IMG/VR virus record: IMGVR_UViG_3300035698_012206
Location: 1-49,249 of that record
Origin: a virus
Strand: one strand, 5' to 3'
DNA length: 49,249 nt
The translations under genes and the position numbers were made by a program. The notes beneath the pieces were generated by a model. The model was not told where the DNA came from, ran no database searches, and saw only the letters and a list, made by a program, of their open reading frames with translations. Within the stretch, counting starts at the first letter, position 1, and every line of letters begins with the position of its first letter. Positions 150 to 46,173 of this stretch are shown piece by piece.

Positions 150-797
150 ATGGAAACACAGTTAAAAACATACTTAAATGAGAGATTAAAATTTGATGAT
201 ATTAATGAAGTTAGTGAACTTGCTGATTATATTAAGGATAATTGTAAACCATTTTTAAAAGAATGAAAACAGAATTATTATAATTATCAATTATTTCATG
301 GAAGGAAGAAACATTCTGAAATTTGATATCTTAGAACTGTAAGAAAAGATAGAAGACCAGCAGATATGCCTCTAAGAATACATAAATTTTTAGATAAATA
401 TTTTAAAAACAATTTTGGTATAAAACTTAGAAGTGAATCATTATTTTGTATATCAAGTCCATCAGTAGCTAGTGATTATGGTGGTGGTAGTGCTGGTGTA
501 TATGTTGTTGTACCAATAGGTAAATTTGGATTGTATTATAATGAAAATATAGATGATCTTTTTACAGATATATTTGAAGATGGTTATTTTGATTATTTTG
601 ATAATGGAAAATGAATAAAAGACAGTCCTTTTTATGATAATGATGAGGATAAATTTTATAGAATAATGAGTGATTATGAAAAGGGTTCTTTAAAAATTGC
701 TTCGAAAGCAAAAGTAGAAGTTATGTTATATGCAGATAAAGTATTATTAATACATACATCAATAATAGATGATGTGATAAAAGAATTGAAGGGATAA
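150..797 (+). CDS. ADP-ribosyltransferase-like protein with capsid-targeting-like N-terminus
   Basis: The protein is 215 aa and needs three TGA codons read as Trp. The start follows the ribosome site AAGGAAG. Residues 3-11 (TQLKTYLNE) match the MKFKxYLNE tag shared by the cluster at 27.7-38.2 kb. The rest is paralogous to the proteins at 29587-30210, 30200-30910 and 36983-37621. It has an HGR segment near residue 51, an FCISS strand near 99-103, a YVVVPIGKF segment, and a late EVML near 190. This layout resembles the R-S-E pattern of ADP-ribosyltransferases. The enzymatic call is inferred from pattern only. It lies directly upstream of the endolysin gene and is separated from its paralogs by about 29 kb. 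Confidence 0.55.
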
Positions 798-12256: not shown

Positions 12257-13024
12257 TTATGCACTGCATCTCATTTCTCCATATCCACATCCTGCTACAT
12301 TCATATGTACCCATTTATGGCAATCTATACAAAATGTAATACATTCATCTATATCAGCACTTGTAACAGGTGATTCATTCAATGGATATTTATGATGACA
12401 ATGTAATTGTATTTCTTCTATTGGTTTTCCACACTTTTGACAAGTATAATTATCTCTTTCAAGTACCATTTGTCTTAATTGTGGCTGAACTTCCCTTGAT
12501 GTTGCTGGTTTATTATCTTTTGGATGTATAACCTGATTGAATATAGGACAAGCTTGTTTACAGCCTTCTGAACAATATAAACCACAATCACCTTTACTTT
12601 TACTTTTTAATGATTCTATTCTATGTTGAATGTCGGATACTATAGGTATAAAATATTTACCACAATATCTACACTTGACTTCTAAAGTAATACCATCAAT
12701 ATCCAATTTTGGGTTTTCATCTATAGTAAGTCTTTCATAGTATGTTTCATATTTAGCATTTGATGTTTTATATTTTTTACAGGTATCTTTAACTTTGTTT
12801 TTATTGTTTTTTCTATATTCTTTTACCCTTCTATATATCACTTTTTTATTAGATTTGTAAGTATTTTTCGATCACTCCAATATAGTTTTTTTATTGTTTT
12901 CATAATAATTTTTAGTGCATTGTTTACAAGAGCAAGATAAATTATCTCTTTTTGATTTATCTTTACAAAAATCTGATATATCTTTTACTTTTTTACATTT
13001 AGTGCATTGTTTTGTTTTTATCAT
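12257..13024 (-). CDS. free-standing HNH homing endonuclease
   Basis: The product is 255 aa. Several Cys pairs in the N-terminal and middle parts (CTKCKK, CRYCGKYF, CSEGC) suggest zinc ribbons. The C-terminal HNH core is ERDNYTCQKCG, then LHCHHKYPLNES, then CIDCHKWVH. It is a close paralog of the protein at 21069-21848, nearly identical over the C-terminal third. It is wedged between the hub gp27-like gene, whose stop overlaps its start, and the gp5-like gene. Such genes are mobile and often sit next to conserved virion genes. Confidence 0.85.
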
Positions 13025-17010: not shown

Positions 17011-17193
17011 TTATTCTTTTTCTTCTTTTTCTTCTTTTTCTTCTTTGTCTTCTTTGTCTTCTTTGTTGTCATCGTCATCATCTTCACAATGAGGACATTC
17101 GTCATATTTTTCGTTATCGAATTTCTTACCACATTTCTTACATTTAACCATTTCTTCTGATAAAAATTTATCAATTTTCGCTAATATATCCAT
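17011..17193 (-). CDS. small zinc-ribbon protein with acidic tail
   Basis: The product is 60 aa. It has two CxxC pairs (CKKCG and CPHC), a zinc-ribbon layout, then a run of Asp and repeated KEDKEE/KEEKEE units to the end. The opening MDILAKIDKFLSEE is shared with the next gene upstream (MDILEKIDRFLKE) and ends in LSE. Function is unknown. The homopurine coding strand is a strong low-complexity tract. The gene sits between virion genes, so a minor virion or assembly role is possible. Confidence 0.65.
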   Translation of the reverse strand: MDILAKIDKFLSEEMVKCKKCGKKFDNEKYDECPHCEDDDDDNKEDKEDKEEKEEKEEKE

Positions 17194-17221: not shown

Positions 17222-17587
17222 TTAGAATATTTTTCTAAGTTTTGATGTTAATGATTTTAACATATCATTGATTTCTTCATCCTCTATATAAGAGATTCTT
17301 GATTTGACCATATCATAAAAATCTTCTGCTACTTCTTCAGCATCCATATCTCCTGAATTTTTTTTACCTTTTAAAAGAGAATTCTTTAAACCAAGTTCAA
17401 ATATAATATCTTCCAGTTCAGTTGTAACATCCTTTAATTTTTTATCATTACCCATTATGTCTTTTAACACAAGATATCTTGGAGTAAAGAATTTTTTAAA
17501 CTCTTTGTCTGTTATATCATTATGTTTGTTGTTATTTTTCTCAAAATTTTCTTTTAAAAATCTGTCAATTTTCTCTAATATATCCAT
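17222..17587 (-). CDS. hypothetical helical protein with MDILxKIDxFLxE opening
   Basis: The product is 121 aa, mostly charged helices (TTELEDIIFELGLKNSLL, AEEVAEDFYDMVKSRISYIEDEEIND). No known family is recognised. The N-terminus is shared with the zinc-ribbon protein downstream, suggesting a targeting or docking peptide used by both. It lies in the tail module between the gp26-like gene and the tape measure. Confidence 0.6.
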   Translation of the reverse strand: MDILEKIDRFLKENFEKNNNKHNDITDKEFKKFFTPRYLVLKDIMGNDKKLKDVTTELEDIIFELGLKNSLLKGKKNSGDMDAEEVAEDFYDMVKSRISYIEDEEINDMLKSLTSKLRKIF

Positions 17588-21068: not shown

Positions 21069-21848
21069 TTATGCACTACATCTCATTTCATGATATCCAC
21101 AACCAGCTACATTCATATGGACTTCCTTGTGACAATCTATACATAATGTTATACATTCATCTATATCAGCACTTGTAATTGGTGATTCATTCAATGGTCA
21201 TTTATGGTGACAATGTAATTCATCTATTGACCCACACTTTTGACAAATATAATTATCTCTTTCAAGTACAATTTGTCTTAATTGTGGTTGGACTTCTCTT
21301 GAAGTTGCTTGTTCTTGTCCTTTAGGATATTTAGATTGATTAAATATTGGACAAGCTTGTTTACATCCTTCTGAACAATATAATCCATTATCACCTAAAA
21401 CACCGTTTAATGATTGTAATCTATTTTGTATTTGTAAATATAAAGGTTTAAAATATTTACCACAATATCTACATTTTACTTCCAATGAAATACCATCATC
21501 TGATATTTTTGGATCTTCATCAATTGTCAATTTATTTTTATATACATCATATTTGACATTTGATTTATGGTATTTTATTTTTTTAATTTTAATTTCATTT
21601 ATATTGTTCATTCTATATTTTTTTGTTTGATCTTTTATTTTTTCAGTATTTTCAGTATAATAATTTTTTAGATATTCTTTTCTTTGTTCGTTTATTTTAT
21701 TCTTATTTTTATGATAATATTCTTTCATATAAACATTTTGACATAACTTACAAATATTTCTATACCCATCACTGGAATTTTTTCTTTTTCCAAATTCCAA
21801 TAAACTTAAAGATTTTTCACATTTAATACATTTCTTTTTTAATATCAT
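21069..21848 (-). CDS. free-standing HNH homing endonuclease
   Basis: The product is 259 aa and a paralog of the protein at 12257-13024. It has N-terminal CIKCEKSL and CKLCQNVYMKEYY pairs, a Lys/Asn-rich linker, CRYCGKYF, CSEGCKQACPIFNQ, and an HNH core (ERDNYICQKCG, LHCHHK, CIDCHKEVH). Where the paralog has Tyr after HHK, this copy has a TGA codon, read as Trp. It sits directly before the sheath gene. Confidence 0.85.
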
Positions 21849-26883: not shown

Positions 26884-27651
26884 TTAATCATAAGCTATAT
26901 CCATACCCTCTCACATCTCATTTTTTAAACGCTCTTCCAATGCTTCTTTTTCTGCTTGTCCTTCACCTACCAAAGAATCACCATCTAAACTTATACTTGC
27001 ATTACCAAGACTTGTCATATTAGCAAATTTTCTTCTAATATGACCGAGTGGTATTTTACATAAAGCTATACAATAATCTTGAAATCACTCATCCTCATAT
27101 AAATATTCTCTCCAATCGCTATCTTGTGATGTTGAATTTAATTCATATCCTTCTTCCATGAAAGAATGTACTAATATATAATCAGAATCACCATTCATAT
27201 CAGCAGCGGAAGGAGTTGGTGAAACTGTTAAAGTATTATTATAAGGATGATATTTAAAATTATATTTGCTTGTAGTAAATTTTTCTATCATATCAATATA
27301 TTGCATACTAATCGTATAATCAATTAATGAAAATCCTGTTACATTATTTACTCATGATTGATATATAGCATTTTGTACAGAAAATAATTCTTGTGAGCCA
27401 CCTAAGTTATTTGATGAGTCATATACTTTTATAATACTATGAACACCCAAAGGCATATCATATTCTCTAATACCATCAGAAATTGATGCAGTAAAAAAGG
27501 TTTCTTGTGTAGCTATTCCTGTTCCTCATTTTCTGTGATAATTATAGGCTTTTTCTATAAGACCATCCATTGCTATATCATCCAATTCTACTTTAACCAT
27601 TGGATATCCAAAATGTTGTTTTATACGTAATTTAAGTTCTGTTAAATTCAT
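26884..27651 (-). CDS. gp13-like neck/head-completion protein
   Basis: The product is 255 aa. N-terminal helix MNLTELKLRIKQHFGYPMVKVELDDIAMDGLIEKA is the family opening (a short repeat-free helix, then V-E-L-x-D). The late part (IALCKIPLGHIRRKFANM, SISLDGDSLVGEGQAEKEALEERL) matches the C-terminal segment of gp13-like neck proteins. A TATAAATA box lies 21 bases upstream, so it opens the late neck-tail operon. Confidence 0.75.
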
Positions 27652-27686: not shown

Positions 27687-28364
27687 TTACTTCATTTCCT
27701 TTAAATTACCTTTTTCATCAACTCATAAAGCAAAAAATTTTATAGATTCCTCACTATCATCTAATCCATAAATTTTTCTTACTTTATCTTCAATTGATTT
27801 AGGTAAATTATCTCTTATACTAAGTAATGCTTTAAGATTTGGTTTGAAATCGTCTAGTAATCTTGCTCTCCTGTATATACCCTCTTTGAGGTATTTTAAC
27901 ATGATTATTTTTTTCTTACCTTCTGTTGTTCCTGTTGCTATATTTCCTGATCTTTCAACATATACATTAGATTTGTCCATTGATATACCATTTTTTTCAA
28001 ATGTCGCAAGGAATGTTTTCTTATCATCAAAATCAGCTCTTGCAGTTAAGAAAATTATCTTTGATCTAGATCCTGTTTCTCTTATTCTTGATAGCATTTT
28101 TTTGATTCTTTTGATAGTTTGTGGTATAGGAACAGATGTTTTATTGAATTTTTCCGCACTTCTAAATTCACCAAAATCAAAATCTTCACCATCCTTTAAC
28201 TTATATGAATTGAATTCCTGATTGTTTAAGCTATGGATTTCCTTACCACCTTTGATGACTTTTATTTCAGCAAAAGTCCTGAATACGGTCTCATCAACAT
28301 CGATAAAACTTATACCCCAGCCTTTTTTATCTTGCTCATTTAAATAATCATTAAAGTATTTCAT
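27687..28364 (-). CDS. HAD-family phosphatase with capsid-targeting-like tag
   Basis: The product is 225 aa. Residues 1-10 (MKYFNDYLNE) match the shared tag. The HAD motifs are visible: FIDVDETVF with the nucleophile Asp22 and Asp24, the FLTARADF motif, and LLDDFKPN with two Asp. Such enzymes remove phosphate from small molecules, nucleic acid ends or proteins; the substrate is not clear. It lies last in the tagged cluster. One TGG and one late TGA encode its Trp. Confidence 0.7.
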
Positions 28365-28622
28365 TTATTTTATCCTTTTAAGATTTTGTTTGGCTGCTTT
28401 TATCATACCATTTAACATTTGAGTAGCCCCTTCAGCTGCATATAAAAGGATTTCATCTCTCTGACCATTATAGTCAAATCCCTTCACTTGATCAATTTCT
28501 TTTTTCATAAAATCATCTATAGTATTTATTATGGCATTAGCAATTGTTCCATCTAATTTTTGTTGAAGTTTTTTTGTTTCAGGTGAAACTTTTGATTCTT
28601 CTAAATAATCTTTTATTTTCAT
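28365..28622 (-). CDS. tagged small helical protein
   Basis: The product is 85 aa. It starts MKIKDYLEES, a variant of the shared tag with LEE as the possible cleavage site. The rest is a charged helical protein (LDGTIANAIINTIDDFMKKEIDQV, AAEGATQMLNGMIKAAKQNL). No family is recognised. A late TATAAATA box lies about 20 bases upstream. Its stop abuts the start of the HAD gene. Confidence 0.6.
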   Translation of the reverse strand: MKIKDYLEESKVSPETKKLQQKLDGTIANAIINTIDDFMKKEIDQVKGFDYNGQRDEILLYAAEGATQMLNGMIKAAKQNLKRIK

Positions 28623-28640
28623 ATTAGCATCTCCTTGTAG

Positions 28641-28648
28641 TATTTATA
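28641..28648 (-). promoter_or_regulatory. T4-type late promoter box TATAAATA (tagged genes)
   Basis: TATAAATA on the minus strand lies 19 bases before the start at 28622. It would allow late expression of at least the last two tagged genes, as expected for proteins that must be packed into heads. Confidence 0.5.
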
Positions 28649-28651
28649 TAT

Positions 28652-29587
28652 TTAATTCTTTTCTGCTTCCCATCTATTAGATTGTCTTTTCTTAAAATCA
28701 ACATAACTAATCTTCTTAACTGTATACTTATTACCCAGTTCCTTAACTATATTATCATACTTAATCATCTGTCTATACAATGAAATATCACAATACAATT
28801 TATCAACACCATTTTCAGCAAATAGACCTAAAAAATCCATACTATCCATTTTAGGGTTATCTTTTACAAGATCATAAGCTTTTTTATTGAATTTATCAAC
28901 ATCTTGTGTTAGAATATAGACTGTTGTTTTCTTAGGAAGGGTTAAGACACTACTTTTTACAACTCATTCATTTTCACTTGAATATATTCGTCCAATCTCT
29001 AATAAGGATTTATATAATATATCATTTAGTTCTTTTGCTGTTATGTCATACTTTATACCTGTTTGTTCAGAAAATATTGTATGAATATATTCGTTTATAA
29101 CATTAGCTAAATCTTTAATATTTTTAATATTCAGTTTTACTTTTTTAGATCATTTATAGTCAACATTTCTAAATCCATAATATTCCATATCATAGAATAA
29201 TTGTTTATGTTTAGTACCTTTCATTTCAGTTCTAAGTCTTTCAAATAGATTACCAAACACTTGATTTACTCATCGTGAACCAGCAGAGTACATTCTTCTA
29301 AGTGCTCACATATTTTTACTAACTAGATAATGTGGATTATCATACATTATTCGTGTGATTTTATTTAATGATAACAGTTGTTTAGTATCAATTTGTAACA
29401 TAGCATCTCTAGCAACACCAAGAAACATAAATTGAATATCACTACTTGATGATATACCTTTTAAACCTTTAATTTTACCTGTTTTTAATTCAGGTAACAT
29501 TTCTTTTATATCAAATACTACTCAAAAATCTTTTGGTAAATCCTTTTCACTGAATGATTTTTCTGTTAAGTATTCATTAAATTTCAT
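28652..29587 (-). CDS. tagged protein of unknown function
   Basis: The product is 311 aa. It opens MKFNEYLTEKS, matching the tag with LTE. The body has a helical region (RIMYDNPHYLVSKNMWALRRMYSAGSRWVNQVFGNLF) and a C-terminal half resembling nothing recognised. It contains TGA-coded Trp and a TGG in the final segment SNRWEAEKN. It overlaps the stop of the next tagged gene by one base. A role after injection is inferred only from the tag. Confidence 0.6.
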
Positions 29588-30210
29588 TATAATGCTCCAA
29601 AATATTCTAATAATTGTCCATTAAATTTATCATTAACTATATAATAACTTTTACAAGTCAACATTATTTCATTGTTATGGAAGGTTAGTTTATCAGTATA
29701 TTTACCATTTTTAACGCTTCTAATAAATTCACGTTTAAACAAAGACATTTCATCATCATTAAGTGTATTGTATCTTTCTTGATGAAAATACATAAAAGCC
29801 GTATATTCTTTAAAAATACTAGACATTAAATTAAAAATATCATCAATTTTTTTACTAGATACTACTTTATATTTTCCTATAGGGAATATTAAAAATATTT
29901 TACCATAATCATCTGCTTGATTTGGATTAAATGAGCAAAATACAGCATTTGATCTAGAATTAACACCAAATTTAGTATAAAAAAAGGCATCCAATAATTC
30001 ATGTAATTCTAATGGTGTATCTTTAGGAGTTCTGCTCTTTCGTACTGGTTTTTCTTTATATCAATCAATATTTTCTTTTCTACCTGACATTAATCATTTA
30101 GAAGTATTAAGTTTCTTTCAATCCTTTAAGAAAGGTTTACAGTTCTTTTCAATATCTGTTACCATTTTAGTAAATTCATCTACTTCATTTAAATAAGATT
30201 TAAATTTCAT
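29587..30210 (-). CDS. tagged ADP-ribosyltransferase-like protein
   Basis: The product is 207 aa with tag MKFKSYLNE. It is a close paralog of the protein at 150-797: both have NCKPFLK, a GR segment, VRKxRxPxDxPL, FG...RS.....FC, a DYG, PIGKY or PIGKF, and a late EIML or EVML. The SGR, SFN and E positions fit an R-S-E style ADP-ribosyltransferase, though the motif is degenerate and may be inactive. Three Trp are TGA. Confidence 0.55.
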
Positions 30211-30910
30211 CCATTATTCCTCAAAATATTCTTTCATCTATCATTATTGATTTGCCTTGAATTCATATTTCTTTTCCATAAGACATATTTTTTAAACCAT
30301 GTTTGAAATTATTATATTCAGGTGAATATATATAATCCATTTCTTTAATGATATCTTTATTACGATCAAAGACACCAAAACCACCTTGTCTTATTATATT
30401 ACCTTTATTTAATTCTATTAAAGATGATTTCAACTCTTTTCAATTTCTTGCTGGAAGTTTATATTTTCTAAACATTTTAGATATAGTATCATTAAAATCT
30501 AATATATGAGTTTCTTTAAATGACCATCAAATATCACCATCTGGAGCAATACCAATATTAGTATTATCATAAGGAATAACCACATATAAAGTACCATAAG
30601 ATTTTGCATTTTCTTGGTCAGTAGCACAAATAATAGAATGTGATCTTTTAGGATATTTTTTTCAGGAAGGGAGGTTGTCCATTAATAAAGTAAAATAATT
30701 TTGTGTATTTGCTGATACTCTTGGTCTTCCTTTATTAGTATCTATTATTATATATTCACTTGATATAGAATCAACACCTCTAAATATTCAATCTTTTTTT
30801 TTCATAAAGAAGTTATAATTCTTTTTACAATTAGTTTTAATGTATCCAATAGCAGCTTCTTTATCAATAGAAACTGATCTGCCTTCATTTAAGTAATGTT
30901 TAAATTTCAT
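30200..30910 (-). CDS. tagged ADP-ribosyltransferase-like protein
   Basis: The product is 236 aa with tag MKFKHYLNE. It has IFRG near residue 42, RSHSIICATD, AKSYGTLYVVIP and a late KEIWIQGKSIMIDE. IFRG, the CAT strand and the E segment match the R-S-E layout better than in its two nearest paralogs. Six TGA codons are read as Trp, two in tandem; the last occurs in RIFWGIMDEI and extends the protein into the next start by 11 bases. Confidence 0.55.
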
Positions 30911-31495
30911 TTAAACTCCTTTTATAACATCACTTGATATTTGATTGCTTTTTTTAAAATTCTTTTTAAGTTGAACAAGGAAGATTTCTAATTTTTTTTT
31001 AGTTTCTCCTACTGTATCTTTTATTAATTCAGATATATGAGTTATAACTTTTTTTGCTCTATCATTAATTTCAATAACATTATTTTTCATAGTATCAACG
31101 CTTATATGTCATCCTGTTAAAGCATTTAATGTATGAATTGGACCAGTTAATATATGTAATGATATTACATCCAATTTCAATAAAACATCAATAACATTTT
31201 GTTTTGTTACTTTACTTGAAATTTCTCTTATTCTTTCTCTATGTTTATCATCTCTATTTGTATGATATTTAAATAAATGATAAAATAATTTACCTGTATT
31301 TTTTCCTGAATCAATTAATATTTGAATTAAACCTTTTTCTTTATGAGCTTTTAAACCAAGTTTATTTAACATAGTTTTAAGACCTTTACTTATATCATCT
31401 TTAATACCTTCATTAAGAGTATAAGTATCTAAAAAATAAGCTAATTCTATCATATTAACTGTATCAGATTCTTTTATATAATGTTTAAATTTCAT
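30911..31495 (-). CDS. tagged helical protein
   Basis: The product is 194 aa with tag MKFKHYIKES, where IKE replaces LNE. It is largely amphipathic helices (DISKGLKTMLNKLGLKAHK, IREISSKVTKQNVIDVLLKLD, ETKKKLEIFLVQLKKNFKK) and basic overall. It could be a DNA- or capsid-associated internal protein. No family is recognised. Its stop directly abuts the next start. Confidence 0.55.
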
Positions 31496-31504
31496 TAATC
31501 TCCT

Positions 31505-32320
31505 TTAATAATTCATAATAAGAAGCTCCGTACCTTTATTGGTCTTTACGTTCTTCTTTGCCGCTGCGGCTTTTGAGAATTCTTTTGACTCCCATCTATA
31601 TTTATCTTTTGGAAACCATTTTTCTAAGTCATTGAAATAATAATAACTTAAAATAAATTTACCTTTCATCCCTTTTAATACATTAGCTAACCTTAAATGG
31701 TCATCTCTTCCAAAATCATGAAAACTATAATATGTTTCAGTATTATAATATGGTGGATCAAAATACAGTAATGTATCTTCTCCATCTAATTTCTCTACAG
31801 CCTTTTCAAAATCAAAGTTATAAGTCTCTGTTATCATTGATAATTTATCTATCATTTTGGGTTTAATCAGTCTACCTCTAAAAGCATCAAACTTACTCTT
31901 GTACTTTCCTTTAAGGTCAATCATTTTGGTGTTCTCTTTCAATCCAAGACCTGAGAATACTTGTGTTAAGAGATAAGCATACTTGTATGCTAGGTCATAA
32001 TCAGGTATTTCTATTGAATCAGAATCCATTGACATAATTTGATCTCTGTATTCATTAAATAAATTATTATCTTGTGATTTTACATCAATGAAGTGATTAT
32101 GGAACTTAATATTATCGCGTGAACAATTTATCAAGTTCACCATGAATCTATTAAAATCATTGTAATAAACTCTTTCTAATGATGGTAATTTATATAGTTC
32201 GCTATTTATATATGTCCAAAAAGCACCACCAAAAATCTCACCATACACTTTAATATCTTCTGGTATAAATGAAGATATCCATTTTGCCATTCTGTACTTT
32301 CCGCCTATAAATGCAATCAT
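31505..32320 (-). CDS. dam: Dam-like N6-adenine DNA methyltransferase (D12 class)
   Basis: The product is 271 aa. It has the N-terminal GGKYRMAKWISSFIP, a GEIFGGAFW S-adenosylmethionine-binding segment, and the catalytic DPPYY motif (LLYFDPPYYNTETYY), as in phage Dam enzymes. It methylates adenine in a short site, likely to protect phage DNA. All Trp codons are TGG and none TGA. It carries no capsid tag and splits the tagged cluster, so a separate origin or early use is likely. Confidence 0.85.
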   Translation of the reverse strand: MIAFIGGKYRMAKWISSFIPEDIKVYGEIFGGAFWTYINSELYKLPSLERVYYNDFNRFMVNLINCSRDNIKFHNHFIDVKSQDNNLFNEYRDQIMSMDSDSIEIPDYDLAYKYAYLLTQVFSGLGLKENTKMIDLKGKYKSKFDAFRGRLIKPKMIDKLSMITETYNFDFEKAVEKLDGEDTLLYFDPPYYNTETYYSFHDFGRDDHLRLANVLKGMKGKFILSYYYFNDLEKWFPKDKYRWESKEFSKAAAAKKNVKTNKGTELLIMNY

Positions 32321-32335
32321 ATTTTCTCCTACAGT

Positions 32336-33652
32336 TTAACTAATTTCATATGATAATCTACCTTGTTCAGATTTAACAGATTTCATTGATCCCTTGCCTT
32401 GTTTCATCTTCAATGTATTTTTACCACTATGAATCATTTTAAATTCAAGTTGTCCTTTATGGAACTTAGCTTGATTTAGATTAGCTTGATAGAAATTCTT
32501 TGAACTTAATGCAATCATTATAGATTCAAGTGCTTTTTTGTCCTTATTGATTAATTCAGCTATATTTTGACATATGAAGTAAGTGAATGATCCCGGTAAT
32601 TTACTTATAATAGCTTTTTGATTTTTCATTATAGGTCAATTGTTTTTAGGATTGCTAACAATATCAAGTACATATTGTTCAGGTTCACCAATAATATTTT
32701 TACTTAAATTCTTATATATGCTAATAGGATTTGATTTTATAGAATCACCAAGTTTTCCCTTTAGCTGTTTCTTCATTATATAATTCATACCAATGTTATA
32801 TAAAAATTCAATATTAGTATAATTGGATTTCATTGAATCTATCATAAATTTTAATATAGGAGAAGAAGTTTTTATGTTATTTCCTATAAGAACTGGCATT
32901 ACATTTGCATGAAATGAAGCTGGTGCTCCTTTACCTGATTTACTTGATATAGGTATAACTTCACCTTTAAATGTGTTAAACATACTATCAACACCAGCAA
33001 AAGAACTGTCTGTAGGCATAATAAATTCTTTAATCTTTTTACCTTTAAATGGGTTAACTCCTGTCAACACATTGTATTCACCATTCATAACACATAAACC
33101 TATAAGAATTTCACCTAAATATTTTGCAATTTCATTTTTAAACTGTTTATTATCATACCCCTGCCAGTCAATGAATTGATATTTACTTTGAGATAGATAA
33201 TTACTCAATATATTTTTTAAGTCATCAGGTATAGTTTTTATTAGTTGAATACCATTTTGTACTGTAGTGGATACATCAACAGGATTATAAAAAACTTTAG
33301 CAGGAAATGTTTTACTTCCTATTGTTACACTTCTACCTTTAGCTGTTTTTAATAATTTAGTTGCTTGTATATTTAATTGTTCTCCGCCTTTTTTAGTAGG
33401 TTTTACTATATTAGCAAACTGTATTATAGTAGGAACACCTTTATATAAAACACTTATTTTCCCTTTTTGAAAGATAGAGGATGATGGTATAATAATTTCT
33501 TCGCCCATTTCTAACACATCATCTGTTTTTTTGTTGTTTATTCAAATTGGTGATGTCTTTTTAATGGTTGTAATTACTTCTTTATCCATAAAATACTTCT
33601 GTCAAGCACCTATACCAGATGATTCATTAACGTATTTTTTAAATTGTTTCAT
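32336..33652 (-). CDS. tagged 438 aa protein, possible nuclease
   Basis: The product is 438 aa with a variant tag MKQFKKYVNES. TGA codons at residues 17, 36 and near 339 are read as Trp; without recoding it would look like two genes. A segment with GEILIGLCVMNGEY, DSSFAGVDSMFNTF and PISSKSGKGAPASFH has a spacing reminiscent of PD-(D/E)xK nucleases (E, D, SxK), but this is a weak pattern match. The C-terminal third is basic. No family is firmly recognised. Confidence 0.55.
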
Positions 33653-34456
33653 TTAAAGCTCCAGTTGTTTCTGTTTTCTTTTCTTATAAGGATTTTTAAC
33701 AAAATGAAGTTTTTCTTCCTCTGTTAAAATGTTCCTTTCAGTTTCAAAATCTTTTATTCTATCATTAGCTTTATTAATATAATTGTCTGATATATCAATT
33801 CCTATATAATCAGATCCTAATAATTTTGCTGCAACGCCAGTTGTTCCACTCCCCATATAAGGATCTATCACTAATCCTTTTTCATAATTTAATATTGATA
33901 GTATACATCTTAAAGGTAAAACAAGTGGAAATGGGGCTGGGTGATCGTTCTTTTTATCAGGTGCAAAAGTCCATACTGAACTCATTCTTGCATGTTTGGA
34001 TTCAAGTCTTTTGCCTATAACATTTTTACCAATAGGTTTATATAACCAATAAATTCTTTCATCAATTTGATAAAATCTATATCCACCCACTTCTAATGGA
34101 CCTCTTCTGTTCCATATAATTTCTTGTCTTAAATGCCAATCACAATTTAATATCCACTCCATAGGATGAGTTGCTATACCTTTTAAATGTCTTATCTTAT
34201 GGTTATAAAAAAATGAACCGCCAGGCTTCATAATCCTATATAGTTCATTTAATACTTTTATCTGTTGATCCTGATATACAAATTCTGGTAAATCATCTGA
34301 TACAGAATCATATTCTATTGCATTAAATATAGCCTTTTTAGAAGATTTAGGTTGTTTCTTGTTGTATGGAGGTGAAGTTACTCCCATATCAATAGAATCA
34401 CTATCCAATGTCTTTAAGACATCAAGCACATTTCCGTTTAATATTTTATTTTTCAT
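33653..34456 (-). CDS. type II-like DNA methyltransferase (N4-cytosine or N6-adenine)
   Basis: The product is 267 aa. It has the catalytic motif TSPPYN at about 28-33, later the SAM-binding DPYMGSGTTGVAA (in reverse order, beta class), GSFFYNHKIRHLKG and WILNCDWHLRQEIIW. Beta-class enzymes of this type methylate exocyclic amines. Its seven or so Trp are all TGG. Untagged, and adjacent to a tagged gene on each side. Confidence 0.85.
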   Translation of the reverse strand: MKNKILNGNVLDVLKTLDSDSIDMGVTSPPYNKKQPKSSKKAIFNAIEYDSVSDDLPEFVYQDQQIKVLNELYRIMKPGGSFFYNHKIRHLKGIATHPMEWILNCDWHLRQEIIWNRRGPLEVGGYRFYQIDERIYWLYKPIGKNVIGKRLESKHARMSSVWTFAPDKKNDHPAPFPLVLPLRCILSILNYEKGLVIDPYMGSGTTGVAAKLLGSDYIGIDISDNYINKANDRIKDFETERNILTEEEKLHFVKNPYKKRKQKQLEL

Positions 34457-34488
34457 ATTCCTATAATAACATACAAAACATACAATGT

Positions 34489-35037
34489 CTATATTTTTTT
34501 ATACTCAAATTCTAGTTCAAATTTATTATTAAATAATTGAACTTCTTTTAATTTAATTGTTGGTAGGAAAAATTTTCTTTGATCTATATCATTTCATACA
34601 TAAGGATCAAGATCATCACCATCAATAGAGAATAATGATATATGTGGTTTCATCCCGCCTGGAAATTTTACTACATCTGGATAGACATTTTCAATCATCT
34701 CTAATGCTTTTTTATATTTATCCACTTGATTATACTCTATTGTTATAAACCATTTCTTTACATTTTTACCTCATAGTAATTTTAATTTTTTAGGTTTCAT
34801 ATTAAAATTAGATGGTATTTTATGTATTTCTCTAATAATATCATCTTTAGAGTATTTTCCTATAATTTGGGCAATAGTAATGTGATGATTCATAGTCTGA
34901 ATGTAAGGAATTTTTGTCTTATCTAAAAAACTTTTAATTGTTTTGGTTATTTGGTTTAAATCATTGGAATCTACTTTGTAACCTAACATAGTTTTATCCA
35001 TTCATTTTGTTTCATTTAAATACTGTTCAAACTTCAT
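34489..35037 (-). CDS. tagged 2H phosphodiesterase
   Basis: The product is 182 aa with tag MKFEQYLNE. It has two histidine motifs, H52-x-T54 (HHITIAQI) and H132-x-S134 (KPHISLFSI), about 80 residues apart, as in 2H phosphodiesterases. This superfamily includes phage anti-CBASS proteins of the Acb1 type, RNA ligase/CPDases and LigT. Combined with a capsid tag, delivery of a nucleotide-degrading enzyme into the cell at infection is a plausible reading. Trp is TGA at three sites and TGG at one. Confidence 0.7.
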
Positions 35038-35039
35038 AA

Positions 35040-35402
35040 TTAAATACCTTCTAATTTCTTTTCCATTTCAGCCAAACCAGTATAGTATGTATCAAATTCA
35101 GCTAAATGGTCTTGAGATATTTTCTTTGCTATCAAAGGATTTGTGGTATGTTCCATTTCAACTTTTATACCCATTTTCAATTGTTCTGGGTCATATTCAC
35201 CTTTAAAATCCTTTGATCTTCCTGCACCGAAAAATGAGCCAATTAGACTATATACGACCTCTTCAAATTTATGTGTATCCATGCCCTCATTTTCTGCAAA
35301 CGAATGAATTTGGCTATCTTTTGGAGTGGGATTGTCATGGAAAAACTTAATGATCTTCTCCTGAATATCTTCTTTTTCATTTAAAAAGTTTTCAAATTTC
35401 AT
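35040..35402 (-). CDS. tagged DUF5661-like protein
   Basis: The product is 120 aa with tag MKFENFLNE. The rest matches the DUF5661 pattern: FEEVVYSLIGSFFGAGRS, then VEMEHTTNPLIAKKISQDHL and YYTGLAEMEKKL. DUF5661 is found in many large phages and has no known activity. No Trp is present. Start and stop abut neighbouring genes of the cluster. Confidence 0.7.
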   Translation of the reverse strand: MKFENFLNEKEDIQEKIIKFFHDNPTPKDSQIHSFAENEGMDTHKFEEVVYSLIGSFFGAGRSKDFKGEYDPEQLKMGIKVEMEHTTNPLIAKKISQDHLAEFDTYYTGLAEMEKKLEGI

Positions 35403-35404
35403 AA

Positions 35405-35857
35405 TTAATCCTCTATAAATTTACCAAATGGTGTTTTTTTCTTTAGTTCTGATTTGACGGGTTTTACAGGTTCAGCATTAATTTCTTCCTTGATAACAAC
35501 ATCAATTTTAACTTCTTCTGTTAAGTCTTCATCAATATCCTCATGTATGGAAACATCAATAACAGGCTCAACTTTAATTTTTACTGTGTCTTCATATGGT
35601 TTAAGGTAATACTTATTGTTCCTGTCATTAACTTCTAATCTAATACCATCAATTTGTTCTAGCAAATCACTTCTTATGACAGCACTTAATGGAGGGATTT
35701 CAAAAACTATACTTCCATTCTTAGATTTACCTTTAAATCCTCAATTAATCTTTTCATTAAACAATCTTATGTTGTATTCTAAGAGGTCTGGGTTAATACC
35801 CTTTACCTCTATATCAAAACTAATTGTTTTTGTCTTATTTGGGTCAAATAATATCAT
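35405..35857 (-). CDS. hypothetical protein with acidic-basic tail
   Basis: The product is 150 aa and is untagged. The N-terminal domain (MILFDPNKTKTISFDIEVKG, INWGFKGKSKNGSIVFEIPP) looks beta-rich, and the tail has alternating Val/Glu/Lys and ends KTPFGKFIED. It is a single-copy unknown. The TGA codon at INWGF is needed to keep the frame. Placement among tagged genes suggests a capsid or internal role. Confidence 0.55.
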
Positions 35858-35866
35858 TTTATTCTC

Positions 35867-36082
35867 CTATACCATGTTTTTAACTTTCATTTTTTTAACA
35901 GCAAGGTTCAAAAGTTTCATTCTGTCACTTGAATTTAGATCTCTAAGATCATCATCAAAATAATTTGCTATATGATTTTTTATTATAACTTCAAGTTCTG
36001 ATGTTAATTCCATTGCATAATCCTTTATTGTAAAATCTTTAGCTACTGGTTTTCTTTCGTTTAAATATTGTTTTATTTTCAT
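35867..36082 (-). CDS. tagged small protein
   Basis: The product is 71 aa with tag MKIKQYLNE, followed by a helical, charged body (YAMELTSELEVIIKNHIANYF, DRMKLLNLAVKKMKVKN). No family is recognised. The sequence after the tag has no catalytic motif. It could be a head-core or internal protein. Confidence 0.6.
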   Translation of the reverse strand: MKIKQYLNERKPVAKDFTIKDYAMELTSELEVIIKNHIANYFDDDLRDLNSSDRMKLLNLAVKKMKVKNMV

Positions 36083-36083
36083 A

Positions 36084-36269
36084 TTAATCCTCTTCTATTT
36101 TATTTATCTTAAAAGATATGTTTTTATCTTCTTTGTCAATGTGTCTGATTGTAATAAGAGGCAATTTACGTTCCACTTCAACCTCTTGGATATAAGTACC
36201 ACCACCAGTTGCACCAGTAACCTCTGTCTTTTGGGTGAATTTGCCCATTGTGGTTAATGCTATTGACAT
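36084..36269 (-). CDS. hypothetical small protein
   Basis: The product is 61 aa, untagged. It has a Gly/Thr-rich stretch (TEVTGATGGGTYIQEVEVERK) and a basic end. No family is recognised. It lies tightly packed between two tagged genes. Confidence 0.5.
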   Translation of the reverse strand: MSIALTTMGKFTQKTEVTGATGGGTYIQEVEVERKLPLITIRHIDKEDKNISFKINKIEED

Positions 36270-36270
36270 C

Positions 36271-36981
36271 TTATCTCCTATACCATGAACTAATTAGTTT
36301 ATCTATGTATGATTTATCATAATCTTCCATGTCAATAAGATATTTATCTCCATCAGCAATCATTTTTTCTTGTAATTCTTTCCCTATTGGATTTTTTATT
36401 GGTGATGAGAAGAATTTGCTCATTTTCTTGTAAGCTGCCAATACAACTTTATCATTTAACTCACCTTCACCATTAAGGATCTCAGTGAAATTTCTGAACT
36501 CACTTGAATAATATTTTTTAAGTTTCTGTGATTCTTTGTATGATTCTTTAAGGAAATCTTCATCAACTATTCTTCCTCTGGCTTTGTTTCTTTTGATTGC
36601 GGTTTTAACAGGAGTATCAATAAAAACCATTGCTACATCATACCCCATTGATTGAAGTATTCCTTTACGTCTTAGTACCGCACTTGAATTAGCACTTGTA
36701 CCATCTATCCATAATGGAAGTAAGCTATTGACATAATTAGATAATTGAGCTTTGGTTAAATGTTTCTCTTTAACACCATACTCTTTCCAAGAGTAATTAG
36801 GATCAAATTTCATATGATATTCGGTCCAAGTATCTGTATTAACAATTTTTGGAGTAACATCACCACCAGATATCTGTTTTAAGACATAAGATTTACCACT
36901 GGCTGACGAGCCAGACATAAACACAGCCTTAAATATACCCTTGTCATTTATACCTTCTTGTAAATATTGTTTAAATTTCAT
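36271..36981 (-). CDS. tagged P-loop kinase, zeta-toxin-like
   Basis: The product is 236 aa starting at the ATG that gives the tag MKFKQYLQE; an ATG nine bases earlier is possible. It has a Walker A motif GSSASGKS at residues 24-31, then VNTDTW, LWIDGTSANS and VFIDTPVKTAIKRNKARGRIVDEDF, like the zeta toxin/AAA_33 kinase family. Members phosphorylate small molecules such as UDP-N-acetylglucosamine, or nucleic acid ends. Substrate is unknown. Its four Trp are TGG with no TGA. Confidence 0.65.
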   Translation of the reverse strand: MKFKQYLQEGINDKGIFKAVFMSGSSASGKSYVLKQISGGDVTPKIVNTDTWTEYHMKFDPNYSWKEYGVKEKHLTKAQLSNYVNSLLPLWIDGTSANSSAVLRRKGILQSMGYDVAMVFIDTPVKTAIKRNKARGRIVDEDFLKESYKESQKLKKYYSSEFRNFTEILNGEGELNDKVVLAAYKKMSKFFSSPIKNPIGKELQEKMIADGDKYLIDMEDYDKSYIDKLISSWYRR

Positions 36982-36982
36982 T

Positions 36983-37621
36983 TTATTCATATTTTATCAA
37001 TTCTTGATCTTTTTTATCCCATCCCAAAGAAAAATCACCCTCTGCGAACATATATTCTTTACAATTAATTCATATTTCATATCCATTTTTAATAGCTTTT
37101 TTTATCCCTTTATCAGTATGAAAATAATCTTTAAAAGGTTTTAATAAATTTTTATAATGATCAGGATAATGATCATAAAATACATCTTTTTTGTAATCAT
37201 AATAATTTATTGTATCTTTATGTCAATTAGTTCTACTATCACTCATATTAAGGTCTTTAGTTTCAACTCATGTATAACTAAATTTACCTATAGGAAAAGT
37301 ATAACAAGCAGTACCAAATACACCCGCATCATCAGCATTACTAGTAACCATAAAAGATTTATCTCTTGGATTATGTTTATTCTTTTGAAGCCATTCATTT
37401 AAATATCTAAATGTTAAAATATCAGTACCTTGTGGTTCTCTGTCTTTTCTTACTTCTTTAATACCCATTTCAGTATTTTCATGCATACCTCTATATAAAG
37501 GTTTTTTAAAAGGTTTGATAAACTTTAAATAAGGTTTACATTCTTTATGTAAAGTATTATTAAACTCGTTAACATCTAATATTTTATATGCTCCTTCATT
37601 TAAATATTTTAAGAATTTCAT
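36983..37621 (-). CDS. tagged ADP-ribosyltransferase-like protein
   Basis: The product is 212 aa with tag MKFLKYLNE. It has PLYRGM near residue 44, VRKDREPQGTD, KSFMVTSNADDAGVFGTACYTFPIGKF and a late GYEIWINCKEYMFAE. YRG, the VTS strand and EIW fit the R-S-E order best of the four paralogs. T4 Alt, a head-packed ADP-ribosyltransferase, is the functional comparison. Three TGA-coded Trp and one TGG occur. Confidence 0.6.
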
Positions 37622-37624
37622 AAA

Positions 37625-37822
37625 TTATTTTCTTCTATTTTTACCTTCTCCACCACCAGATCCGTCTTTTAATCCACCTCCAGATCTGTTTTTACCCTGT
37701 CCTTTGCCTCTTCCTTTACCTGTGCCTCTAGGAACACATTTTTTGTCTATTGGACATCATTCCTCACCATTAACACATCCATCTTCGCTAACTAATCTAT
37801 TTATTCTATCTGTTACTTTCAT
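37625..37822 (-). CDS. basic Gly/Lys/Arg-rich small protein
   Basis: The product is 65 aa. It begins MKVTDRINRLVSEDG, a possible tag variant with VSE, then a CVNGEEWCPIDKKC segment with Cys residues, and then a string of Gly, Lys and Arg (GTGKGRGKGQGKNRSGGG). It is strongly basic. Such sequences can bind and condense nucleic acid. The Trp codon is TGA. Stop and start overlap the adjoining genes. Confidence 0.6.
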
Positions 37823-38187
37823 TATTTTACTCCTTTTATATATGTGTTCAGTTTTTTAATAACTGCATCAATTGTTTTTGGTCTTGATTTTCTTAAACCC
37901 TTGACACCAAAACTACCACTAAAATGCTCTAATATATGATCTTTGGCTGTAAGATGTAATCTTATATATCTTGAATTTTCAAGAATACCATTAACCCAAT
38001 CTTTCTTCTCATCTAATGATATCAATATCATTATAGAAATATTTTTATTTCCACCTAATGTGCTTTTATCAACCATTACAAGAGGTGCTTTGACACCATC
38101 TTTAATTTGTTTAACAATTTTATTGACATTATCTATTGTAAATAAAGGTTCAATATCTTTTTCATTCAAATATTTTTTAAGTTTCAT
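37822..38187 (-). CDS. tagged protein, first gene of the cluster
   Basis: The product is 121 aa with tag MKLKKYLNE. The body (IMILISLDEKKDWVNGILENSRYIRLHLTAKDHILEHFSGSFGV) is alpha/beta and not recognised. It is the promoter-proximal gene of the tagged cluster, behind a promoter with a TTGACT/TATAAT pair. Its Trp is TGG. Confidence 0.6.
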   Translation of the reverse strand: MKLKKYLNEKDIEPLFTIDNVNKIVKQIKDGVKAPLVMVDKSTLGGNKNISIMILISLDEKKDWVNGILENSRYIRLHLTAKDHILEHFSGSFGVKGLRKSRPKTIDAVIKKLNTYIKGVK

Positions 38188-38222
38188 TTAATATCCTTGT
38201 TTCAGTGTTTATTTTATAAATC

Positions 38223-38251
38223 ATTATACATAATATAATATAAAAAGTCAA
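38223..38251 (-). promoter_or_regulatory. sigma70-like promoter of the tagged cluster
   Basis: On the minus strand TTGACT, a 17-base spacer and TATAAT precede the gene at 37822-38187. It would give early or constitutive transcription of the cluster, with a late box further down at 28641. Confidence 0.55.
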
Positions 38252-38261
38252 ACTGTAAATT

Positions 38262-39233
38262 TTAAACTGCCATGTATGTTAAAGTACCTGATTGTAAAGC
38301 AGAAGATCCAGTTAATATAGATGTATATGAATTAAGTCTAGCAGCAACATAACTAGTTGGACATGTTGGATAATTAACTCCATATCCACTTGTTGTACAA
38401 GACCCATATAAACGAATTTTTGTTATATCCGCTAATGTTGTTACATTTAAATTAAATACATGTGATGTATTGTGTGGATGATAATTAGCTGATCAACCAG
38501 AATCTTCTCAAACACTACCTGTTCATACTTGTAATTTTATATAATAACTTCATCATGTACTAGATATAGAAACACCCGGATTAGTATAATTTTCAACAAG
38601 CCCTGTTGCTGTTATGTTCGCTGTTAAATCTCTTGTATTTGGTTCAATATCCGTAAATTCGGTTGTGGTGAATGTTCAAGTCCCTAAATTTCCATAAGTA
38701 TCACTTACAAGCTTTGATTTATATTCATCAACGGTTTTTCCTCCTACACCACTGTCAAGAACAAGATCACATTTTGGCATAAACGAATATGTATTTTCTG
38801 AAATTAAAGTTAAATCATCAGCATCAATAACTATTTTTTGATCTTGCGCAGATGAATCAGCATCATAAGTAGGCATACTAGCAGGTGTTAACATAATGCT
38901 TGGTGGAGAAGTATAACTATTATCTAATGTTTTTGTAACACCAGATTCACAAGTTCCAATCTCTATACTATTAATACTATCTTCTAAATCTTCAATCTTA
39001 TCATATACAGCATTTTTACTAGGTGATACATCAACAACACCATTTCAAGATGAACTATAAACTAAATCAGATACACTGCCAATTAATATTCAAGCTGAAT
39101 TTCCTCCACCATAATATACATTTTCATCAATTACAAAAACAACTCTACCAACATCCGTTGCAATTCAAGAAGACAAAGACGCTAGCCTTTCTATATTTAT
39201 TGGTCCTTCCATATTTATTCCATAATGATCCAT
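38262..39233 (-). CDS. tail fibre-like virion protein
   Basis: The product is 323 aa. It opens MDHYGINMEGPINIERL, related to the opening of the fibre at 4331-5161, so the two may attach at the same place. The body has VFVIDENVYYGGGNSAWILIG and a long beta-rich C-terminal domain rich in TGA-coded Trp (two in tandem in STWWSYYIKLQVW). A late promoter TATAAATA stands at 39261. It could be a fibre or decoration protein. Its end is 11 bases from the cluster promoter. Confidence 0.55.
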
Positions 39234-39260
39234 ATTTTTCTCCTTTAATACTATAAAATA

Positions 39261-39268
39261 TATTTATA
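39261..39268 (-). promoter_or_regulatory. T4-type late promoter box TATAAATA (fibre gene)
   Basis: TATAAATA on the minus strand lies 27 bases before the fibre gene start at 39233. Confidence 0.55.
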
Positions 39269-39312
39269 TAAATTGTTTATTTTCTTTTATAGTATTTATC
39301 ATTATAAAATAA

Positions 39313-39350
39313 AAATCCTTTCTATAGAATAATTTCTATAAAAAGGATTT
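39313..39350 (-). terminator. terminator after the Hsp20 gene
   Basis: A long stem (AAATCCTTT and TATAG pairing with CTATA and AAAGGATTT, one mismatch) is followed on the minus strand by a T-rich run. It lies after the Hsp20 stop at 39373. Confidence 0.8.
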
Positions 39351-44563: not shown

Positions 44564-44794
44564 TTATTTAAAATCTGGGTGTTCTTCTAAACTTCTTACA
44601 ACTTCAAATTTTTTAGTTTCATTAATTTTACGCTTTACAATCTCACCATAATATTTTTTACCACGATTATACATTTCAGCTTCTTCATATATTTCAGCTA
44701 AACTATAATTATCTGTTATACAAAGCAAATAATTGTGACTATCAAAATTACCATATCTATACATGGTCACAACAAATATATTTTCACTTTTCAT
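44564..44794 (-). CDS. hypothetical early protein
   Basis: The product is 76 aa (MKSENIFVVTMYRYGNFDSHNYLL, SLAEIYEEAEMYNRGKKYYG). It is an alpha/beta small protein. Its end lies four bases before the promoter of the J-like gene. No family is recognised. Confidence 0.55.
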   Translation of the reverse strand: MKSENIFVVTMYRYGNFDSHNYLLCITDNYSLAEIYEEAEMYNRGKKYYGEIVKRKINETKKFEVVRSLEEHPDFK

Positions 44795-45183
44795 TAAAAT
44801 TCCTCTTCATAAATTGTACCATTCTTAACAACTATTTCATCCATGCCAAAATTATCATATATAGCTCGTCCAATACCTTCATCATCGTTTGAACAAGTAC
44901 AAATAAGAACTGTTAATTCACCTTTAAGAAGATTTTCCATTTCTTCATACTTGTCAAGTTCTCCATCATAATATTCATGATCTTTTTTGGCTTCTTCAAT
45001 TGATATATTATATTCATATTCAAACCAATCATCTAACTGATCAATAGTTTTAATTTCATATTCTACCATATCTTTAATAGGCATTTCAATTGATATTGTT
45101 ATATCTTTAATTTTATGATTATCTGTTGTTATTATAAAAGAACTGCTTGAACTGTTACTCACAAATCCACTCCTTATTTTCAT
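44794..45183 (-). CDS. hypothetical protein with Ser-rich start
   Basis: The product is 129 aa. It opens MKIRSGFVSNSSSSSFII, a start seen in many unannotated phage and bacterial proteins of the same small family. The rest is acidic, with VLICTCSNDDEGIGRAIYD. Function is unknown. A divergent promoter pair lies upstream with the uvsY gene. Confidence 0.6.
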   Translation of the reverse strand: MKIRSGFVSNSSSSSFIITTDNHKIKDITISIEMPIKDMVEYEIKTIDQLDDWFEYEYNISIEEAKKDHEYYDGELDKYEEMENLLKGELTVLICTCSNDDEGIGRAIYDNFGMDEIVVKNGTIYEEEF

Positions 45184-45283: not shown

Positions 45284-45691
45284 ATGAATGAAGAAGAAAT
45301 TAAAAAAGAATTATACGAACAATATCCTATTGATAATGAGCTTAGCTTCAATGAATTCACTATAGAAGATAGTATCCAAAATCAATTAAAACTAGAATTG
45401 AAATATTGGGATTTACTTCAAAATGAAACATATAAAATGAACAAATTAGATGATATAATGATTGATTATAGATTTAAAGCATATGATAAACTCAGATTTG
45501 AGAATGACAGAACTTTAACAAAATATGAAATTGAAGAGGTATATCTACCTAAAGAAAAATCCATTAAAGCAATTAAAGCAAAAATAATAGAACAAAATGT
45601 TAGGATAGATTTTTTTAAAATGTGTTATGATTCTGTTAAACAACTAAGATGGAACATACAAACTTTTCTTAAAGCACAGGGACAACAATAA
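45284..45691 (+). CDS. uvsY: UvsY-like recombination mediator
   Basis: The product is 135 aa, the length of T4 UvsY (137 aa). It is helical, with LELKYWDLLQNETYKMNKL, TLTKYEIEEVYLPKEKSIK and SVKQLRWNIQTFLKAQGQ, matching the UvsY layout of a helical core and a late Trp-bearing helix. UvsY loads UvsX on single-stranded DNA. Its stop overlaps the start of uvsW(N), as uvsY and uvsW neighbour each other in T4. Two TGG-coded Trp occur. Confidence 0.6.
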   Translation: MNEEEIKKELYEQYPIDNELSFNEFTIEDSIQNQLKLELKYWDLLQNETYKMNKLDDIMIDYRFKAYDKLRFENDRTLTKYEIEEVYLPKEKSIKAIKAKIIEQNVRIDFFKMCYDSVKQLRWNIQTFLKAQGQQ

Positions 45692-46173
45692 TGACAGAAT
45701 TAAAATTACACAATGATAATATGATACAAGTTGATACGGATGATTTTGAATATTTAATTGAATTGAAGAAATTCTTTACTGAATTTGTAGAAGGATATAT
45801 TTTTATGCCTAAATATAAATCAGGTCAATGAGATGGAACTATATCAGTGTTTAATAAAGGAAATAGAACATTTCCTTATGGTTTATTGTTTGAATTTATA
45901 AAATTTCATAAAATGACATTTCCATATCTACCATTACATATACCAGATAATATTAAAGCCTTATTTAAAGGAGATGATCTAAAAGGTATATATGATTTAA
46001 AATATGAACCAAGAGATTATCAATTAGAATGTATTGATGCTGCGATTAAATACAAAAATAATCTTTTCGTTTGTGGTACTGGTGGCGGTAAATGTGTATC
46101 TAACATTTATGTAGATATAGAAACATCAGAGGAAGATTATGAAAAATACTTCTCTGATTGTGAAAAACTTTAA
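45691..46173 (+). CDS. uvsW: UvsW-like helicase, N-terminal half, with split-intein N fragment
   Basis: The product is 160 aa. Residues 1-134 are the helicase N-terminal domain: YKSGQWDGT (Trp from TGA) near 42-50, EPRDYQ at 106-111 and the incomplete P-loop GTGGGK at 129-134. Cys135 starts a 26-residue intein N fragment (CVSNIYVDIETSEEDYEKYF...). The frame ends after it. The partner fragment is the first 135 residues of the protein at 1263-2681, and the extein there resumes with SLI. The stop overlaps the next convergent gene by four bases. Confidence 0.85.

Follow-up and report, generated by a model that had tools for sequence, protein, structure and literature searches.

Why would proteins with different bodies share one short N-terminal start? 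This question is raised by a cluster of 18 genes, all on the minus strand, that runs from 38187 to 27687 in the IMG/VR virus record IMGVR_UViG_3300035698_012206. The window analysed here is the viral fragment of 49,249 bases in its full length (GC content 27.8%), whose structural and clamp-loader genes identify it as a T4-like myovirus. Our analysis makes it highly probable that the shared start, hereafter called the tag, is a T4-type capsid-targeting sequence and that the tagged bodies are packed into the phage head, freed by a protease and ejected together with the DNA. Capsid targeting is well supported. All genes were read with code 4 (TGA = tryptophan).

A common start in the gene cluster

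The tag pattern M-K-x-x-x-(Y/F)-(L/I/V)-x-E opens 13 of the 18 cluster genes, or 14 including a weaker variant (MKVTDRINRLVSE, gene starting at 37822), and an outlying copy (METQLKTYLNE) opens the gene 150-797. The claim of the preliminary description that at least twelve cluster proteins and the one at 150 share a near-identical start thus holds. In its exact form, M[KR]x4[LIV]xE, the pattern is present in 11 of the 18 genes (binomial P = 2.8e-26, based on its occurrence at 0.0019, or 0.19%, of the internal positions of the fragment's own proteins) and in none of the 43 other fragment genes of at least 100 amino acids (aa). Two tags are one residue longer, namely MKQFKKYVNE (gene from 33652) and MKYFNDYLNE (gene from 28364). 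Twelve of the 13 clear cluster tags and the copy at 150 end in L/I-x-E, and one ends in V-x-E. The four cluster genes without a tag encode two DNA methyltransferases, which served as internal controls, and proteins of 61 and 150 aa. The cluster, its neighbour and further candidate starts in the fragment are composed as follows:

37822..38187 (-), tagged protein, 121 aa, tag MKLKKYLNE; no relative or family found for the body
37625..37822 (-), 65-aa protein with a basic Gly-rich body and the weaker start, which is similar to M..IEKIDEYLNE of the second tag class
36983..37621 (-), tagged protein, 212 aa, tag MKFLKYLNE, phrog_11975-type body
36271..36981 (-), tagged P-loop kinase (zeta-toxin / AAA_33 type), 236 aa, tag MKFKQYLQE; Pfam AAA_33 and Zeta_toxin above cut-off
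36084..36269 (-), untagged protein, 61 aa
35867..36082 (-), tagged protein, 71 aa, tag MKIKQYLNE
35405..35857 (-), untagged protein, 150 aa
35040..35402 (-), tagged protein, 120 aa, tag MKFENFLNE, C-terminal DUF5661 (Pfam PF18905, E 1.7e-12)
34489..35037 (-), tagged 2H phosphodiesterase-like protein, 182 aa, tag MKFEQYLNE, two H motifs
33653..34456 (-), untagged N6/N4 DNA methyltransferase (Pfam PF01555); tryptophan codons: 0 TGA, 5 TGG
32336..33652 (-), tagged protein, 438 aa, tag MKQFKKYVNE; no relatives found for the body
31505..32320 (-), untagged D12-class adenine DNA methyltransferase (Pfam PF02086); tryptophan codons: 0 TGA, 4 TGG
30911..31495 (-), tagged protein, 194 aa, tag MKFKHYIKE
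30200..30910 (-), tagged protein, 236 aa, tag MKFKHYLNE, phrog_12810-type body
29587..30210 (-), tagged protein, 207 aa, tag MKFKSYLNE, same family as 30200..30910
28652..29587 (-), tagged protein, 311 aa, tag MKFNEYLTE; one relative, in another code-4 contig, tag MKFYNYINE
28365..28622 (-), tagged protein, 85 aa, tag MKIKDYLEE; relative in contig L055 with the differently spelled tag MNNIEKFLNE
27687..28364 (-), tagged HAD-superfamily phosphatase-like protein, 225 aa, tag MKYFNDYLNE, HAD motifs
26884..27651 (-), neck protein (head-tail adaptor Ad2, T4 gp13 type; phrog_211, E 2.5e-22), adjoins the cluster
150..797 (+), outlying tagged protein, 215 aa, tag METQLKTYLNE, same family as 29587-30210
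17222..17587 (-), possible second tag class, MDILEKIDRFLKE; compare MKLIEKIDEYLNE in G001
17011..17193 (-), possible second tag class, MDILAKIDKFLSE, acidic low-complexity body

The second start class, M..(I/L)..KID.(Y/F)L.E, is found on small proteins of the fragment (17222-17587 and 17011-17193), of L064 and L094, and of G001 (34214-34450 and 63773-64096, with one located between gp21 and gp22), the nearest large relative (133 kb, likewise code 4). In the form M..IEKIDEYLNE it is present in the same phages as the tag. Other repeated starts were observed as well. The head region of LR756508.1 (L038, 2405-12784) comprises about ten small genes that begin approximately with MKxxExKLRxIIREEIxxVLxE and surround the prohead protease of a 484-kb phage, and small proteins in G001 (81364-82728) and in the fragment (44794-45183) have the start M(A)K(I/V)R(T/S)GFVSNSSSSS in common.

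The head protease motif and the spelling of the tag

In T4, the prohead protease gp21 cleaves after L/I-x-E, and ten N-terminal residues of IPIII are enough for packing (PMC9026906, PMC5694885). A loose tag pattern, applied as a control to part of T4, retrieved IPII, IPIII, gp21, gp22, gp24 and two others; IPI, whose leader is longer, was missed. The sequence tests and this control support the proposal that the tag is a T4-type capsid-targeting start ending in a prohead-protease motif and placed on many bodies. The motif recurs in the capsid protein gp23: in 14 other phages that either bear the tag or contain relatives of tagged bodies, [LM]xE aligns with the cut site at E65 of T4, and the cut site in G001 is ambiguous (NYLKE or NMVNE). 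G001 harbors two gp23-type capsid proteins (38166-39329 and 31711-32952; compare T4 gp23/gp24). All six of the related records tested at the outset gave matches to the S77 protease (two fell below cut-off), as did most of the large tag-bearing contigs; G001 has one.

From T4 and Atu_ph07 we infer how docking, cutting, packing and ejection would proceed in this phage. During head assembly, the tag would dock each tagged protein in the prohead core, and the S77 prohead protease (T4 gp21 type), which is expected on the unsequenced part of the genome, would then cut after the Glu of (L/I/V)-x-E. The freed bodies would remain in the head alongside the DNA and enter the next cell together with it.

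The tag could also be read as a peptide that docks proteins at the prohead core or at some other site of assembly, in which case the tagged proteins would serve head assembly rather than attack. This reading is favored by a 78-aa protein of G001, which starts with MKLIEKIDEYLNE and is located between gp21 and a gp22-like gene, by small acidic tagged proteins such as 35040-35402, and by the N-terminal motif common to T4 gp21, gp22 and gp24. Nevertheless, it is unlikely, as several tagged bodies are enzyme-like and have no known assembly role, the sets differ among related phages, and T4 packs and ejects the proteins that begin in this way (PMC5694885, PMC9026906).

The capsid-targeting reading gains further support from the distribution of the tag. 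A DNA pattern for MKFKx-YLNE matches 21 viral contigs, and two scrambled patterns of the same composition match none. Tag-bearing contigs carry strings of tagged genes (e.g. L059, L044, L050 and L053); L059 encodes tagged kinases, a HAD protein and two members of the large phrog_11975/12810/15932 family, and the same tag is found in L053, a part of a 343-kb contig with a GC content of 50%. In T4-like and jumbo phages, starts of this kind precede dozens of different body families, and the sets of tagged proteins vary among related phages. In loci fetched by body sequence only, [LIV]xE is present at residue 7 in 29.4% of the proteins, compared with 1.6% at residues 25-75. One tagged protein, L148 2168-3136 (MKKFKQFLNE), contains a segment resembling a HExxH metallopeptidase joined to a HAD domain. 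The tag across phages is not described in the open literature that we searched, whose coverage excludes most subscription journals.

The spelling of the tag tracks the phage genome and not the attached protein. Its free positions agree at 0.49 between unrelated bodies of one genome and at 0.31 between related bodies of different genomes (153 tagged proteins, 72 body families; 0 of 500 shuffles). The set of kinase loci had partly been picked by a tag-like pattern, and the main tests were therefore repeated without it; on a set not chosen by tag, the agreement is 0.30 versus 0.18 (0 of 1000 shuffles). Examples of genome-specific spellings are MKFYxYINE in the code-4 contig L074/L154, MRLQQYITE in L157 and M[KR]WxQL[TN]E in Atu_ph07. 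Relatives retrieved with tag-less queries mostly have their own tag, and the relatives of the methyltransferases have none. Genome-specific spelling and the relatives' own tags thus fit a leader that is recognised by the phage's own head machinery.

A shared start could also result from recent copying of gene starts or from a translation benefit of an AT-rich MKFK, independent of targeting. AAA and TTT prevail at codons 2-4 of the tagged genes, and the likeness sits at the gene start. However, this explanation, which we consider very improbable, does not account for YLNE at residues 6-9. The Y, N, L and F of the tag are encoded by varying synonymous codons, and the likeness is therefore at the peptide level. 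Moreover, the scrambled patterns found no match, a D-for-E pattern of equal degeneracy recovered three distinct proteins only, the tag occurs in genomes near 50% GC, and the same body has a tag that differs by genome.

Some observations nevertheless weigh against capsid targeting followed by cleavage and ejection. No virion of the phage has been observed; the fragment is without head genes, and gp21 and gp23 are accordingly not among its 49 kb. V replaces L/I ahead of xE in two tags (VNE, VSE), and some small tagged proteins could be parts of the prohead core that stay in the head. The T4 late-promoter motif TATAAATA is not enriched in the fragment (20 found, 23 expected), a result that is uninformative. 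Finally, the E-to-D pattern (MKFKxYLND) matches seven contigs; in T4, Asp at the position of the tag's Glu stops cutting and leaves targeting intact (PMC9026906). Such Asp variants, on which a gp21-type protease should not act, and the shortness of the start with its basic and aromatic residues might suggest an uncut address of another kind, e.g. for a membrane or a phage-made compartment. This is extremely improbable, because the tag motif agrees with the site at which gp23 is cut in the same genomes and also with how T4 internal proteins begin.

Recoding, codon use and virion proteomics

TGA encodes tryptophan in this phage. Only a reading of TGA as a sense codon lifts the coding cover from 70% to 95% and the median open reading frame from 98 to 212 aa, and it is this reading that keeps the frames of the tag cluster open. 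In masked-TGA alignments with standard-code homologues the TGA column is occupied by W in 208 cases, followed by L (67), F (61) and G (25). The fragment contains 163 TGA and 83 TGG tryptophan codons, and none of its genes of at least 100 aa ends at TGA. Code 11, under which many genes are broken, was rejected in favor of code 4, as were TAG or TAA as sense codons, and TGA as glycine, given that tryptophan is the aligned residue in homologues. Some phages have been reported to switch their code via suppressor tRNAs in standard-code hosts (PMC10879173); a suppressor tRNA was found neither in the fragment nor in G001.

Apart from the tag cluster, we identified neck proteins (gp13 and gp14 type), a gp15-type protein, the sheath, two tube proteins, baseplate proteins (gp6, gp25 and gp53 type) and the clamp loader. 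Two related proteins with an HNH-like C-terminus among the tail genes (12257-13024 and 21069-21848) are probable homing endonucleases. Pieces of a UvsW-like helicase are located at opposite ends of the fragment (1263-2681 and 45691-46173), and each breaks near a Cys with intein-like sequence, possibly reflecting a split intein.

Two independent lines of support come from the TGA codon share and the proteomics of Atu_ph07. TGA accounts for 98 of the 113 tryptophan codons in virion genes and for 29 of 41 in tagged genes, compared with six of 36 in replication-side genes and none of nine in the two untagged methyltransferases (Fisher test, tagged versus replication-side 2.6e-6, tagged versus methyltransferases 1.2e-4). 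By their TGA share, the tagged genes thus group with the late, virion class. The methyltransferases (33653-34456 and 31505-32320) use TGG only, unlike their tagged neighbours, and are probably early genes or recent arrivals.

In the Atu_ph07 virion, 131 proteins were identified by electrospray ionisation tandem mass spectrometry (ESI-MS/MS), and the coding sequences (CDS) 31-76 form one of three main clusters, across the whole of which 29 products were detected and only two had been foreseen (PMC6102473). The tagged array of Atu_ph07 corresponds to gp53-gp63 by gene count from the record and lies in the middle of this cluster. The numbering takes AUZ94813 as gp1 and places the primase-helicase at gp70, in agreement with PMC6102473. 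These data apply to the cluster as a whole and are only suggestive of the presence of tagged proteins in the virion.

It is also possible, albeit doubtful, that packing is coupled to recoding, so that proteins written with TGA travel in the head and can be active as soon as the next infection begins. The idea derives from the predominance of TGA in the tagged genes and of TGG in replication-side genes and untagged methyltransferases. In a standard-code host, TGA-rich late genes would be translatable only late in infection.

Tagged bodies and known systems

The bodies had been described as unrelated; about a dozen unrelated families are indeed present, whereas those at 150, 29587, 36983 and 30200 belong to one family. 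Three of the functional labels are borne out. The kinase (36271..36981) has a Pfam match above cut-off and a P-loop. The 2H phosphodiesterase-like protein has two invariant H-x-[T/S] motifs (H52-x-[T/S]-I and H132-x-S-L, conserved in three phages), and the HAD phosphatase-like protein has D-x-D-x-T, T-A-R and D-D motifs that are invariant in four phages; the Pfam matches of both are below cut-off.

The four-member family had been labelled ADP-ribosyltransferase (ART)-like, which did not withstand the comparisons. Its matches are restricted to phrog_11975/12810/15932. The AlphaFold model of the 236-aa protein (30200-30910) is confident (predicted local distance difference test, pLDDT, 90.8; residues 1-6 disordered), and a PDB fold search with this model gave no match (best E 1.6). 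The Pfam ART families did not match any of 32 family members, and hhalign against T4 ModA and ModB returned probabilities of 1-3%. A fold search of predicted viral structures retrieved the protein's own family, with Atu_ph07 proteins on top, and by eye the members share RG, S-x-S and one invariant E. The Pfam, PDB fold, viral fold and hhalign tests thus do not support an ART identity, and we treat the group as a family of unknown function. Among the other bodies, a search for relatives of the 438-aa protein found none, the model of the 311-aa protein (pLDDT 55) was too poor for use, and PADLOC applied to the tagged bodies yielded nothing except a weak kinase match. Once released, the kinase, HAD, 2H phosphodiesterase and unknown-fold bodies would presumably act on host functions or defences.

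The closest parallels are the T4 internal proteins IPI, IPII and IPIII with their capsid-targeting sequence (Mullaney and Black, reviewed in PMC9026906), which inhibit type IV restriction enzymes (PMC12373910). Both systems combine about ten N-terminal residues that end in L/I-x-E with unrelated bodies and clustered genes. However, T4 has three internal proteins, compared with about fifteen tagged ones here, several with enzyme motifs; the spelling is MKFKxYLNE instead of MKTYQEFIAE, and the present phage is recoded. T4 Alt, a packed and injected ADP-ribosyltransferase with an N-terminal propeptide of six residues (PMC5694885), is likewise an enzyme delivered from the head and cut at an N-terminal ITE, but the large tagged family has no detectable relation to ModA/ModB, Pfam ART families or PDB structures. 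The gp53-gp63 array of Atu_ph07 (PMC6102473) has homologous tandem bodies, most with M[KR]WxQL[TNI]E, in a cluster of virion proteins; it differs in consisting mainly of paralogues of one family, in its shorter tag and in its standard code. Polyvalent or MuF-fused effectors comprise many domains, including 2H and ART, that are predicted to be head-packed (PMC9503650), though by fusion to a head domain and not by a short start on separate proteins. The inner-head propeptides of phiKZ and SPN3US are also cut after Glu by a gp21-related protease (PMC5694885), but they are much longer and belong to a different phage group.

The strategy of head packing is already known from the T4 internal proteins and from the head-packed ARTs and 2H enzymes proposed previously (PMC9503650). 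New are how large the set is and which enzymes it contains, a spelling of the tag that differs by genome, a fold without a PDB match and the connection with recoding. We conclude that the cluster most likely represents the internal-protein strategy of T4, enlarged to a big set of enzymes in a recoded phage. The fact that the spelling is particular to each genome suggests co-evolution of the leader and the head machinery of each phage, which would make tag, core protein and protease specificity jointly testable. Furthermore, the tag exposes a large and widespread family with a confidently predicted but unmatched fold, and it links stop-codon recoding to the choice of packed genes. For T4-like and jumbo phages in general, it offers a sequence-only listing of head-carried proteins, which are mostly annotated as 'hypothetical'.

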